Source of the DNA: Nitrospirota bacterium
GTDB taxonomy: Bacteria; Nitrospirota; Nitrospiria; Nitrospirales; NS-4
Direction: 5' to 3'
DNA: 35,684 nt
NCBI GenBank assembly: GCA_005877505.1
Contig: VBOO01000002.1
Location: forward strand, 1 to 35,684
Of the stretch, positions 20,253 to 25,035 are shown one piece after another; the stretch's first letter is position 1; every line of letters begins with the position of its first letter. A program made the translations under genes and the position numbers. The notes beneath the pieces were generated by a model. That model saw only the letters and a list, made by a program, of their open reading frames with translations, was not told the origin of the DNA and searched no databases.

Positions 20253-21073
20253 CGCGCCCCGGTTCTCGTGCCAATGTCGCGCCCGCTCACGTCCCCCGAA
20301 AGTCCCTCGGGCAGCACTTCCTCATCGACAAGAACATCGTCCACAAGATCGTCCGCCTGGCCGAGCTCCAGCCGGGCGACACGGTGCTGGAGATCGGCCC
20401 GGGCCGGGGGATCCTGACGGAAGCGCTGCTGGACAGCTCCGGGCTCGTCGTCGCCGTAGAGCTGGATGCCGTGCTCTGCGCGCACCTCCGCGCGATGCTG
20501 GGGCACCGGTCGAACTTCCGCCTGATCGAGGGTGACGCGCTGACATTCGAGTACGCGCAGGTGCCGAGCCCGTTTCTGGTAGTGGCCAACCTGCCGTATT
20601 CTGTCTCGACGCCGCTACTGTTCCGCCTGCTGGAGGAGCGGCGGCGCATCGGCCGTCTGGTGCTGATGCTCCAGGAGGAAGTGGTCTCGCGCCTGGCCGC
20701 GACGCCCGGCGGCAAGGACTACGGGGCGCTCTCCATCGCGGCGCAGTTCTACTGCGAGGTGCGCCAGGCGTTCCGGGTGCCTCCCACGTGCTTTCGTCCG
20801 AAGCCCCAGGTCGGGTCGGCGGTCGTCGTGCTCACGCCGCTGCCGAAGCCGCGCGTCTCGGTAGCGGACGAGGCGTTCTTCTTCCGGGTCGTGCGCGCCG
20901 GGTTTGCGCACCGGCGTAAGGCCCTGCCGAATTCGCTGCGTGACGAGGGCTTCGAAGGTGCGCCGACGGCCGCGGCGTTGGAGCGGGCCGGCCTCGATCC
21001 CCTCCGCCGAGCCGAGACCCTCAGCGTCGAAGAATTCGCGGCGCTGGTGGATGGGCTTATGGGCCTGCCTTGA
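20249..21073 (+). CDS. rsmA: 16S rRNA (adenine1518/1519-N6) dimethyltransferase
   Basis: KSLGQHFLIDKNIVHKIV, VLEIGPGRGILTEALL, VVANLPYSVSTPLLFRLL. Confidence 0.93.
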   Translation: MTRPGSRANVAPAHVPRKSLGQHFLIDKNIVHKIVRLAELQPGDTVLEIGPGRGILTEALLDSSGLVVAVELDAVLCAHLRAMLGHRSNFRLIEGDALTFEYAQVPSPFLVVANLPYSVSTPLLFRLLEERRRIGRLVLMLQEEVVSRLAATPGGKDYGALSIAAQFYCEVRQAFRVPPTCFRPKPQVGSAVVVLTPLPKPRVSVADEAFFFRVVRAGFAHRRKALPNSLRDEGFEGAPTAAALERAGLDPLRRAETLSVEEFAALVDGLMGLP

Positions 21074-22091
21074 ACGACGACGCTTCGATGAGACCGTTCT
21101 CTCCGTCTTTCCGTGTTCCTATCCCCGTCAGCAGCCGCACGCGCCGATAGCCGGCCTTTCGCAGCCAGCGCATCACGTCCCGCGACGCATACGTGTTGCC
21201 GGTGTCGGTGAAGAGCAGCATGGTCAGGGCGAATGCCGTCGTGTCGATGGGATTCAGCCCGTGCGGGTCGGTGAGGAACGAATCGTGGATGAGCAGGCGC
21301 CCGCCCGGGGCCAGGGCCTTGCGGATCTTGCGGAAGAGGCCCACGTTCTGCGCCGGCGCATAGATGTGGATGATGTTCGACAGCCAGACCACGTCGTAGC
21401 GGCCGGGCAGAGCATCGAGCATGAAATCCAGCGGCGCGAAGCTCAACCGGGCCTTGGCGGGATGCGTCGCCGCGATCTCGCGCGCGACCTTGAGGGCGGC
21501 GGGCCGATCCGCCACCGTGGCGCGCAGGGAGGGGTTGGCCGCGAGGAGGGCCATGGCGTAGGTGCCGGGCCCGCCGCCCAGGTCCAGAAGGGTGCGCGCC
21601 CGGCTCAGATTGAGGAACCGGGCGACCGTCTTCGCCTGCTCCCGGCTCCGGTGGTGCATGGCCCAGGTGAAGTTGCGGCGCCAGACGGACGACTCGGGCT
21701 CGTCCGCATCCAGCGGCTTCCCCGAGCGCACGGTGTCGGTGAGCTGCGTGAAATCGTGCCACTGGTTTGTGATGAGCTCAAGGTAGGCGCCGCGATAGGC
21801 CGGGCTCCGCCGGTTCAGCTCCGTGCGCGCGAGCAGTGTGTTCCGATAAAACGAGCCGCGTTTGACCAGCAGGCCCAGCACAGCGAGGTTCCGGCAAAGG
21901 ATATCGAGACCCCGCCGGTCGGCCCGGAGGGGTCGGGCCAGCGCGGCAATTGGCCAGGAGCGGGCTCCGAGGGCGGTGAAGAGGTCCAGCTCCAGCGCGG
22001 TGAGGATGGCGCGGGAATACTGATAGAGCTGGGCTACGTGACGGAAATCATCGAAGGTCTTGATCGGGTAGGCGCCGAGAGGGTACGTCAC
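21057..22091 (-). CDS. O-methyltransferase-family class I SAM methyltransferase
   Basis: N-terminal dimerisation/winged-helix region then LLDLGGGPGTYAMALL, WLSNIIHIYAPAQNVGLFRKIRKALAPGGRLLIHDSFL; GTG start inferred. Confidence 0.8.
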   Translation of the reverse strand: MTYPLGAYPIKTFDDFRHVAQLYQYSRAILTALELDLFTALGARSWPIAALARPLRADRRGLDILCRNLAVLGLLVKRGSFYRNTLLARTELNRRSPAYRGAYLELITNQWHDFTQLTDTVRSGKPLDADEPESSVWRRNFTWAMHHRSREQAKTVARFLNLSRARTLLDLGGGPGTYAMALLAANPSLRATVADRPAALKVAREIAATHPAKARLSFAPLDFMLDALPGRYDVVWLSNIIHIYAPAQNVGLFRKIRKALAPGGRLLIHDSFLTDPHGLNPIDTTAFALTMLLFTDTGNTYASRDVMRWLRKAGYRRVRLLTGIGTRKDGENGLIEASSFKAGP

Positions 22092-22169
22092 CCCCGAAGT
22101 ATAGCATCCGCGGAGACGCCGCGGTCTGAGGTCGGCGGGTCCGTAGTCTCTCGTGAGGGAAAGGTCGAC

Positions 22170-22198
22170 TTGACAGGACAACCGGAGGGGATTAGGAT
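22170..22198 (+). promoter_or_regulatory. Sigma70-like promoter
   Basis: TTGACA (22170-22175), 17-nt spacer, TAGGAT (22193-22198). Confidence 0.65.
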
Positions 22199-22247
22199 CA
22201 CCTTGCACCCGACAAGGGTGTATCTCTCAGCGAGAGGAGGTACTTGT

Positions 22248-22346
22248 ATGAGCGACCTTACTCCTCCGGGCCAGTCGGGCCCGCCCGCGACGGGTGACAC
22301 CTCGCCGCGGTGGGCCTTCCGCTCAACGCCGGACCCCTCTGCGTAA
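22248..22346 (+). CDS. 32-aa small protein MSDLTPPGQSGPPATGDTSPRWAFRSTPDPSA
   Basis: AGAGGAGG Shine-Dalgarno with 7-nt spacing to ATG, own promoter and terminator. Confidence 0.5.
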   Translation: MSDLTPPGQSGPPATGDTSPRWAFRSTPDPSA

Positions 22347-22535
22347 GCCCCGACGGTGGCGCCCCATGGCGCGTAGTCGCTGAAAAGCGACGATCGGATG
22401 CTCAGGGCCTCGGAAAACAGCCTCCAAAGTGAGGTGCGTGGCTCCGGCGGCGACGGAAGTTCCCACTGACTGTCGTAGGCGGGTCGACCACATAAGGCGA
22501 CCCATAATGGCAAGTGAGGCGCCCCAAGCGCCGAG

Positions 22536-22575
22536 AAGGGCTCCCGTCACGGGACGGGAGCCCTTCCTATTTTCC
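22536..22575 (+). terminator. Rho-independent terminator
   Basis: AAGGGCTCCCGT-CACGGG-ACGGGAGCCCTT (12-bp perfect stem) followed by CCTATTTTCC. Confidence 0.8.
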
Positions 22576-22617
22576 GCCTGCGACCGCCAAGGGAATCATT
22601 GATCTTGCCCCCTTGTT

Positions 22618-25035
22618 ATGGTAGCCTGCCCCACAATGGCCGCTGCTGGTATGAGCAGAAGCGGAGCGGCAGGGACTCGCCATGAGATGGCGGGAGTGGT
22701 GCTCCTCACCTTGGCGCTGCTCCTCGGCCTTTCGCTGCTGTCCTACTCTCCACGCGATCCGATCCTGTTCGAAGAGTCCTTTCATCCGGCGTCCGTTCAC
22801 AACCTGATCGGCCGGGTCGGGATGACGCTGGCCACCGTTGTCTTTGCGGTCTTCGGGGGCGGGGGCTATCTCGCGCCGATCGCGCTGGGAATCCTCGGAA
22901 GCCGATGCTTCCTCCGTGGCGGATTGGGCATCACGCTCCGCAGCGCCGGCGGCTTCACGGCGTTGCTCCTGTTCTTGTCCATGCTGTTGGCGCTGCACGT
23001 GCCTGGCGTGCCGACGATCAGTAGCGGGTGGATTCAGGAAGGACTGGCGGGCGGGCGTGTCGGCAGCTCCCTTAGCGGGATGCTCGTGCTGTACTTCGCG
23101 CCGGTTGGCGCCCACATCGTGATCATTGCCGGGTTGCTCCTGTCCGTGCTCATCGCGACTCCGTTCTCGCTGTTCACGCTCGGCCGGCAGTGGGCGGAGA
23201 TGGCGGCGACTCTGCGCGAATGGGCGCAGGAACGGTGGAGCCTGTTCCAGGCGTGGGCGGGCGACAGGCCCAAGCGCGTCAAGGCCAAACCAGTCAAGAT
23301 CATCAGGCCGAAGCCGGCCGTGCCGGATGAGGTGGAGATCACTCAGGCGGCAGGCAGCGCCGAAACCGTGGAACCGGTGCCGCTGAACCAGCCGGCGTAC
23401 CGTCGTCGCAAGAGGAAGCTCGCCCTCGCGGATCATCGTTCGGCGCAGCTTGTCTTGCCTCAGGTCGTGGACGGAGCCGGGTACGTGCTGCCGGACCCGG
23501 CGGTGTTGCTGCGCGAGCCGGCGACGCGGGTGGATCGGGTCACCGATGAGGAGATCCGTGCGCAGGCGCAGGTGCTCACCCAGGCCCTGGCGAATTTCGG
23601 GATCGACGGCCAGGTGATCCAAACGCACGTGGGCCCCGTCGTGACGATGTACGAATTCGAGCCGGCCCCCGGCGTCAAGGTGGCCCGCATCGTGAACCTC
23701 GCCGACGATCTCGCGCTGGCCATGCGGGCGACCAGCCTCCGCATCGTCGCGCCCATCCCCGGCAAGTCGGTGGTCGGCATTGAAGCGCCCAACCCGCGGC
23801 GCGAAGACGTGATGCTCAAGGAACTCGTGCTGAGCGAGGCGTACAGCGGCGCTCGCTCGCGGTTGAAACTGGCGCTGGGCAAGGACATCTTCGGCGCGCC
23901 CGTCGTGGCGGATCTCCGGAGCATGCCGCACCTGCTCGTCGCGGGCGCCACGGGATCGGGCAAGAGCGTCGGCCTCAACACGATGATCCTGAGCCTCCTC
24001 TTCGCGGCGCGCCCCGATGAGGTCAAGTTTCTGCTGATCGACCCCAAGATGCTCGAGCTGACGGTGTACGAGGGCATCCCGCATCTGTGGCGTCCGGTCA
24101 TTACGCAGCCCAAGGCCGCCTCGCGCGGGCTTATGCTGGCCGTCAAGGAGATGGACCGCCGCTACAAGCTGATGGCCGAGTTCGGCGCCCGGAACATTGA
24201 TGCGTACAACCGCGCCGTCGCAGAGGCCCAGGGCGTTGCACTGCCGCACCCCTTGGAGACGCCGGAGGGGGAGGTCGTGCCCTGCACGGAGCCTCAGACG
24301 GCGTATTTCTCGGAAGAGGAGCGGCTGGCGTTGGGCGGGACGGCGGCTCCCGGCATCTCGGAGGCGCAGACGCCGCCGGCCCCGCTTCCCTACCTGGTCA
24401 TCGTCATCGACGAACTGGCCGACCTGATGATGGTCGCTTCAAAGGAGGTCGAGGACTCCATCACCAAGCTGGCGCAGATGGCAAGGGCCGCCGGGATCCA
24501 CCTGATCCTTGCCACGCAGCGGCCCTCCGTGGACGTGCTGACGGGCCTCATCAAGGCGAACTTCCCGGCTCGTATCGCGTTCCAGGTCGCATCGAAGACC
24601 GACTCGCGCACGATCCTCGACCAGAACGGCGCCGATCAGTTGCTGGGCCGCGGCGACATGCTCTACCTTGCCACGGGCAGCGGCAAGTTGATCCGCGTGC
24701 ACGGCGCCTACGTGCCGGAGGGAGATCTGCGCAGGGTCGTGGAGTTCGTCAGGGCCCAGGGCAGTCCGGCCTTTGCCGAGGAGGCGGTGCCGGTGGGGGC
24801 GGAGGCGCCCGGCGCCGACGGCGAGCGGGACGAGATGTACGAGAAGGCCAAGGAGATCGTGGTCGGCACCGGGCAGGCCTCGGCCTCGTTCCTGCAACGC
24901 CGGCTCCGCATTGGCTATCCCCGCGCGGCTCGCATGATCGAGATGATGGAACAGGACGGCCTCGTCGGCGCGATGTCACGAGACGGCCGCCGTGAAGTGC
25001 TGGTCAAGCGCGTGGGCGTTGATGAGGGGTTATGA
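22618..25035 (+). CDS. ftsK: DNA translocase FtsK
   Basis: N-terminal TM segments, GATGSGKSVGLNTMILSLLF, VIVIDELADLMMV, LATQRPSVDVLTGLIKANFPARIAFQV, C-terminal gamma domain. Exact start uncertain. Confidence 0.93.
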   Translation: MVACPTMAAAGMSRSGAAGTRHEMAGVVLLTLALLLGLSLLSYSPRDPILFEESFHPASVHNLIGRVGMTLATVVFAVFGGGGYLAPIALGILGSRCFLRGGLGITLRSAGGFTALLLFLSMLLALHVPGVPTISSGWIQEGLAGGRVGSSLSGMLVLYFAPVGAHIVIIAGLLLSVLIATPFSLFTLGRQWAEMAATLREWAQERWSLFQAWAGDRPKRVKAKPVKIIRPKPAVPDEVEITQAAGSAETVEPVPLNQPAYRRRKRKLALADHRSAQLVLPQVVDGAGYVLPDPAVLLREPATRVDRVTDEEIRAQAQVLTQALANFGIDGQVIQTHVGPVVTMYEFEPAPGVKVARIVNLADDLALAMRATSLRIVAPIPGKSVVGIEAPNPRREDVMLKELVLSEAYSGARSRLKLALGKDIFGAPVVADLRSMPHLLVAGATGSGKSVGLNTMILSLLFAARPDEVKFLLIDPKMLELTVYEGIPHLWRPVITQPKAASRGLMLAVKEMDRRYKLMAEFGARNIDAYNRAVAEAQGVALPHPLETPEGEVVPCTEPQTAYFSEEERLALGGTAAPGISEAQTPPAPLPYLVIVIDELADLMMVASKEVEDSITKLAQMARAAGIHLILATQRPSVDVLTGLIKANFPARIAFQVASKTDSRTILDQNGADQLLGRGDMLYLATGSGKLIRVHGAYVPEGDLRRVVEFVRAQGSPAFAEEAVPVGAEAPGADGERDEMYEKAKEIVVGTGQASASFLQRRLRIGYPRAARMIEMMEQDGLVGAMSRDGRREVLVKRVGVDEGL

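Follow-up and report, generated by a model that had tools for sequence, protein, structure and literature searches.

The window analyzed in this study comprises 35,684 nucleotides of a Nitrospirota genome (assembly GCA_005877505.1, contig VBOO01000002.1; the assembly, G000, is 2.17 Mb and 87% complete). An earlier note had described a self-contained transcription unit upstream of ftsK, and our analysis located a promoter, a Shine-Dalgarno sequence, an ATG open reading frame (ORF), hairpins and a terminator, all on the forward strand, within positions 22170-22575. The near-consensus promoter of that description is present as TTGACA (22170-22175)-N17-TAGGAT (22193-22198) and is the sole sigma-70-like site within 1.7 kb, where shuffled sequences yield 0.1. 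A divergent O-methyltransferase gene (21057-22208) adjoins this promoter; in two related genomes, G006 and G007, a gene for a small CxxC zinc-ribbon-like protein takes that upstream position in place of the O-methyltransferase. Elsewhere in the window, a tRNA-Val(CAC) gene lies on the minus strand at 375-449.

The Shine-Dalgarno sequence, AGGAGGT (22235-22241), precedes an ORF of 32 amino acids that begins at ATG 22248 and ends at 22346. Codons 1-8, M-S-D-L-T-P-P-G (22248-22271), form a conserved core and, on the basis of pN/pS and Pro-Pro conservation, a predicted ribosome-stall site. The remainder of the ORF (22272-22346) is lineage-specific, overlaps hairpin P4 and is constrained at the level of the RNA rather than of the codons. 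P4 itself (GGCCCGCC...GGTGGGCC) spans 22278-22316 and is followed by a three-way junction (22341-22413) with two inner hairpins, one at 22359-22372 and one, GTCGCT-GAAA-AGCGAC, at 22376-22391. The stem of the latter had been singled out for its GAAA cap; the stem is conserved in relatives but the tetraloop is not. Further downstream are two small hairpins carrying the conserved GGCGGGTC (22471-22502), in which two pairs are changed on both sides, and a signature hairpin, GGCG-CCCCAAG-CGCC with the pentaloop CCYAA (22518-22532), at an offset of 270 from the ATG. The rho-independent terminator (22535-22566) is also present, with a weak U tract (CCTATTTTCC) and a stem of 14 pairs, not the 12 first reported. 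Folding of positions 22204-22570 gave a z-score of -5.4, to which the terminator contributes, and none of 100 shuffled sequences was equally stable.

BLASTN placed the element upstream of ftsK throughout the genus (g1; four genomes, the other three copies being 71-80% identical), and a second genus of the family, f1, contributed two further genomes that carry it there. Conservation in related genomes had been set as a test of the element, and it was found together with covariation. In the f1 alignment, compensatory changes occur in the closing and inner helices of the three-way junction, with 7 pairs changed on both sides and 13 cells so changed versus 4.9 in shuffled alignments (reached in 0 of 500); these changes come mostly from a single split, g1 versus g4, and alone are moderate evidence. 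A more divergent copy in a third genus (G005) keeps the promoter, the ATG, the TPPG codons and the 3' hairpin and has lost the rest of the ORF frame; we counted it as a divergent member. A hairpin at the predicted start of the RNA (22205-22221) is kept in the four g1 genomes only. The two 5' hairpins described before (22205-22236) are genus-specific, since the same alignment block is the promoter in G006 and G007, and we regard the 22205-22221 hairpin as no family feature.

Two further readings were rejected. Conservation of a SPRWAF block in the first six sequences pointed to a 32-amino-acid protein; however, pN/pS was about 0.6-1.5 for nearly all pairs, and the block is absent from distant members and corresponds to the RNA hairpin P4. 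Taken over its whole length, the ORF gives no sign of coding constraint within f1 alone, and the remaining 24 codons of the window look conserved within the family because they overlap P4. The proposed Shine-Dalgarno sequence and 32-amino-acid ORF do exist, yet the constraint in the wider family is limited to codons 1-8, and the stop codon is lost in G003. Sequestration of the Shine-Dalgarno sequence by the ACUCC of codons 5-6 is possible in f1; copies in genus g8 carry ACG, hence this pairing is no family feature.

Searches beyond the close relatives extended the element across the order Nitrospirales. A covariance model of its middle part (R1) matched two members of f3 at unrelated loci (G063, E 4.5e-6; G018, E 0.0012), each with a Shine-Dalgarno sequence, an ATG and the codons M-x-D-(L/F)-T-P-P-D; the ORF stops right after these codons in G063 and after 15 codons in G018. 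A DNA pattern for the ORF start was found in 38 of the 238 genomes of the order and a backward-read control in none. A peptide profile with 15 rows, one of them the window peptide, matched 165 of the 238 genomes, often twice, and scored the window MSDLTPPG at E 1.9e-11. Among the matches listed for a phylum-wide sample of 396 genomes, all lie inside Nitrospirales and none outside. In f2 there are two paralogue classes, MEDL[S/T]PPDHNGPPSHGR.. and MDD[A/T]TPPGPSGPPMQGR.., classes A and B with 23-residue peptides, and tandem pairs lie about 500 nt apart in genus g8. There was no clear match in some lineages, namely most of f3, f4 and G004. A looser pattern, TCNCCNCNGTGGGCCTTCNG, searched against genome contigs gave mostly chance matches and was rejected, and the loci L047 and L059 drawn from it are non-members.

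A hairpin of the form GGCG-YCCYAAG-CGCC lies about 250-280 nt past the ATG, and in general a terminator-like hairpin comes next; a strong hairpin stands 3' of it in the f1 copies and most f2 copies. This 15-mer alone (GGCGYCCYAAGCGCC) occurs in 156 of the 238 genomes, and the backward-read pattern gave about 10 scattered matches. We fetched 57 such hairpins while ignoring the ORF, roughly half coming from genomes in which the peptide search had given a weak result or none. At the right distance upstream, 53 of the 57, a figure free of peptide bias, have a Shine-Dalgarno sequence and an ATG ORF encoding M-x-(D/E)-x-(T/S)-P-P-(G/D), with a GGAGG/GAGG-type site upstream of the ORF. The other four are two copies of a third, diverged paralogue (L364 and L365) and two apparent chance matches (L361 and L366). 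The copies of the diverged paralogue (G062:C18 and G120:C40) retain a Shine-Dalgarno sequence and ATG and encode MEETSVHRI, in which Pro-Pro is lost. The promoter arrangement is likewise common to family copies: of 132 copies, 129 have TTGAC-N16-18-TA no more than 190 nt 5' of the ATG, 117 of them with exactly 17 nt, compared with 3 for a reversed control. Copies in genus g13 (f3) are without the CCYAA signature hairpin.

A covariance model (R3) built only from class-B-like copies of f2, with f1 excluded, matched the window at 22227-22347 (P4 and the GTGCC-type hairpins) with 30.8 bits and E ~6e-7, its E-values being rough. R3 also matched other f1, f3 and class A copies as well as L364 (38.5 bits), and the chance loci L361 and L366 scored nothing. 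The window copy retains P4 (in f2, GGCCCGCC..GGCGGGC), the inner hairpins, of which 22359-22372 equals GTGCC..GGCAC in f2, the signature hairpin and the terminator. The long-range closing helix P1 and the 5' hairpin P2 of f2 have no alignable counterpart in the window, where the f1 5' region is shorter, and we treat this, on alignment, as a lineage difference that does not define the family. By these comparisons, the window holds a divergent copy of an RNA family that spans the order Nitrospirales. The family, previously undescribed and to date recorded only in Nitrospirales, is well supported.

The consensus structure was taken from 30 full-length f2 copies and contains 60 pairs. Both sides were changed in 24 pairs (13.1 in shuffled alignments) and in 86 cells (29.8), and 94.5% of cells were paired versus 90.5%, the last figure being favoured by a structure partly derived from the same alignment. 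None of 500 shuffles reached any of these figures, and slid controls gave at most 14 pairs and 28 cells. The helices are the long-range P1, the 5' hairpin P2, P4, a long branched P5 that includes the GTGCC/GGCAC hairpin, P7 and the signature hairpin. The GGGUC-type motif of the small 3' hairpins is conserved in f2 too, and it is possible, from the model, that codons 8-9 (GRCC) pair with this conserved 3' GGGUC. An alternative helix between a 5' GGCCC and the Shine-Dalgarno region likewise has a good score, so a structural switch through alternative pairings is conceivable. Several f3 members (L195, L241-L243 and L305-L306) have a run of 4-7 T after P4 that resembles an internal intrinsic terminator; the window and most copies have no U run there.

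Within the mini-ORF, pN/pS for codons 2-8 was 0.44 across 126 distinct copies, a set partly biased by the peptide search, and 0.50 across 51 copies found without reference to the ORF. The other two frames gave 0.84-1.86. Pro-Pro is present in 126 of 126 copies while its third positions vary, 124 have Gly or Asp at codon 8, and codon 5 reads Thr, Ser, Asn or Ile. The Gly/Asp preference is partly explained by RNA pairing, since the purine at position 2 of codon 8 faces U or C. Together these comparisons make a translated core of eight codons well supported. A reading in which the transcript is a small mRNA for a functional micropeptide, with the rest as a structured 3' UTR, would account for the Shine-Dalgarno sequence, the start, conserved codons 2-8 and the 23-residue peptides of classes A and B. 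However, ORF length ranges from 8 to 43 codons, the ORF ends after codon 8 in 15 copies (leaving a product of 8 residues) and after codon 14 in 33, and codons 9-14 have a pN/pS of 1.2. Furthermore, most of the conservation falls in the 250 nt after the ORF, where the CCYAA loop is invariant and unpaired. We consider the micropeptide quite improbable.

The hallmarks of known RNAs, which the earlier note had looked for without success, were absent here as well. At the gathering threshold, 4227 Rfam families matched the whole window only at tRNA-Val; permissive settings gave weak terminator-only matches at the locus, attributable to chance, and ARAGORN found no tmRNA there. Rfam also had no match at 27 homologous or related loci. 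A 6S RNA counterpart (RF00013) was rejected for a misfit of both shape and sequence, although no f1 genome has a 6S match. At other loci in f2, L180-L187 (G024, G011, G030, G040, G032, G026, G034 and G038), partial 6S matches cover model positions 59-134 with E-values of 1e-7 to 1e-5, below the cut-off; perhaps these represent a divergent 6S or another RNA. Searches of the open-access literature turned up nothing relevant on a Nitrospira small RNA with a leader peptide or structured RNA, an absence that is weak evidence. In the published transcriptome of N. moscoviensis small RNAs were removed during preparation (PMC6606698), which may be part of the reason that an RNA of this kind could be overlooked. 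The Rfam negatives, the order-wide family and the covariation support the suggestion that this is a new structured noncoding RNA class.

The RNA adjoins and precedes ftsK in G000-G003 and G005-G007, an arrangement that invites a reading as a cis-acting ftsK leader, and a leader-peptide attenuator for ftsK had been put forward. That idea is not borne out. The terminator stands between the two, and ftsK has a separate promoter outside the RNA, TTGATC-N17-TAGCCT (22599-22627, forward strand), which is conserved across g1 and has a near-identical counterpart in G007. This promoter ends 8 nt before ATG 22636, leaving ftsK near-leaderless; 22636 is probably the start, and the upstream ATG 22618 probably is not. 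In f2 genomes without an intervening RNA, ftsK follows ksgA- or phoU-like genes with a similar promoter arrangement and is again near-leaderless. From the conserved promoter and this f2 layout, we conclude that ftsK has its own promoter and that the RNA is a separate unit. Flanking genes also differ by lineage, with PPK2 and an APC permease in many f2 genomes, a deaminase in f3 and FtsK in f1 (FtsK was identified by Pfam and the other names by sequence reading). We give the ftsK leader almost no credence.

Varied neighbours fit a stand-alone, mostly trans-acting RNA. In one such reading, the RNA is a trans-acting regulatory sRNA whose CCYAA and C-rich loops pair with the ribosome-binding sites of mRNAs, and whose mini-ORF merely recruits an initiating ribosome for protection or localisation, the Pro-Pro pause being incidental. 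The independent transcription unit, the changing neighbours, the tandem paralogues and the invariant, unpaired CCYAA loop all agree with this reading, yet it leaves unexplained why Pro-Pro is universal with free third positions and why Gly or Asp follows it. We consider it unlikely, though it retains appreciable weight.

We propose instead a free-standing structured RNA in which a translated mini-ORF with a Pro-Pro stall site couples the RNA to the status of the ribosome and EF-P, and we give this proposal an even chance of being correct. Its proposed stall-sensing mechanism is plausible. Nearly all copies carry a tiny ORF with Pro-Pro-Gly or Pro-Pro-Asp, a type of motif at which ribosomes are known to pause, and the RNA therefore probably senses or exploits ribosomes engaged in translation. 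The promoter and terminator would produce a structured RNA of roughly 370-430 nt (about 370 nt for the window copy), on which ribosomes would initiate at the strong Shine-Dalgarno sequence and pause once Pro-Pro occupies the P site and Gly or Asp the A site. The pause would fall directly before P4, on the segment able to pair with the conserved 3' GGGUC. Such a pause, which EF-P would normally relieve, could then switch or protect the RNA fold, and the activity or lifetime of the RNA would in this way reflect the state of translation. Effector function would reside in the 3' portion bearing the CCYAA hairpin, which would act in trans on mRNAs, on the ribosome or on a protein.

Diprolyl stalling is favoured by Asp or Gly following the prolines and is relieved by EF-P (PMC4176338), and efp is present in 20 of 21 genomes examined. 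On these grounds, the selected feature of the mini-ORF would be an EF-P-type stall motif situated a few codons ahead of P4. In E. coli, stalling is weaker when Thr precedes PPP (PMC4176338), and the pause at TPP(G/D) may therefore be no more than mild. Where f3 copies have a U tract behind P4, the pause may tie completion of the RNA to translation status. A rival reading is attenuation with EF-P-dependent read-through, in which translation of the leader peptide would decide whether transcription ends at P4 and hence how much full-length RNA is made. P4 lies just 3' of the stall site, 4-7 U follow it in L195, L241-L243 and L306, and when EF-P is lost, intrinsic terminators located 3' of polyproline codons cause premature termination more readily (PMC5021804). 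The lack of this U run in the window and most copies makes attenuation improbable as an account of the family.

The RNA proposed here, with its putative EF-P-responsive pause, shares features with several known systems. Dual-function sRNAs such as SgrS/SgrT and RNAIII/hld are free-standing, terminated RNAs that combine a small translated ORF with a structured noncoding part, and the family resembles them in each of these respects. SR1/SR1P is a further example (PMC8501984). The earlier suggestion of a dual-function sRNA is thus compatible with our results, except that the coding part is the eight-codon core and no 32-residue protein; the family differs additionally in its Pro-Pro-Gly/Asp motif and in lacking any sequence or model match. 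Arrest and leader peptides (TnaC, MgtL, ErmCL and the hisL type) are encoded by short upstream ORFs with conserved stall-type codons followed by hairpins, and the same elements occur here. In contrast to those systems, the window and most copies have no downstream gene in the same transcript, and the RNA itself would be the product. tmRNA (RF00023) is a structured RNA of similar size with an internal ORF; our RNA differs in having a Shine-Dalgarno sequence and ATG start, no tRNA-like domain and no Rfam or ARAGORN match. In G150, a true tmRNA lies about 1.2 kb from a family copy (L215). The large structured noncoding RNAs OLE, GOLLD, ROOL and 6S are likewise conserved, covarying and lineage-restricted, but the present family has an embedded translated mini-ORF and, even at permissive thresholds, matches nothing in Rfam.

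Structured small RNAs with an ORF already exist, and we have filed the family with that kind; whether it is strictly a new class hinges on function. The stronger claim, that it represents a new class of stable trans-acting structured RNA, a sensor of translation status (EF-P) in which a ribosome pausing on the internal, almost universally conserved eight-codon Pro-Pro-Gly/Asp ORF determines folding or activity, is a tentative one that we doubt somewhat more than we believe. Nitrospira and its relatives drive nitrite oxidation and comammox, and their regulatory RNAs are little known. The family occurs in about two thirds of the genomes of the order, often in two copies, with a mini-ORF shrunk to what may be a ribosome-pausing motif, and if the proposal is true this would be an unusual junction of noncoding RNA and translation control. 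A covariance model of the family is ready for annotation.

At three loci the mini-ORF and P4 module is positioned directly upstream of a gene (L219 at 1500, L229 at 1500 and L310 at 2012, oriented coordinates), and in L219 and L229 the gene behind the module begins MKPRILQLLVFVLLVG. Such copies could represent a form of the RNA that has come to act in cis.
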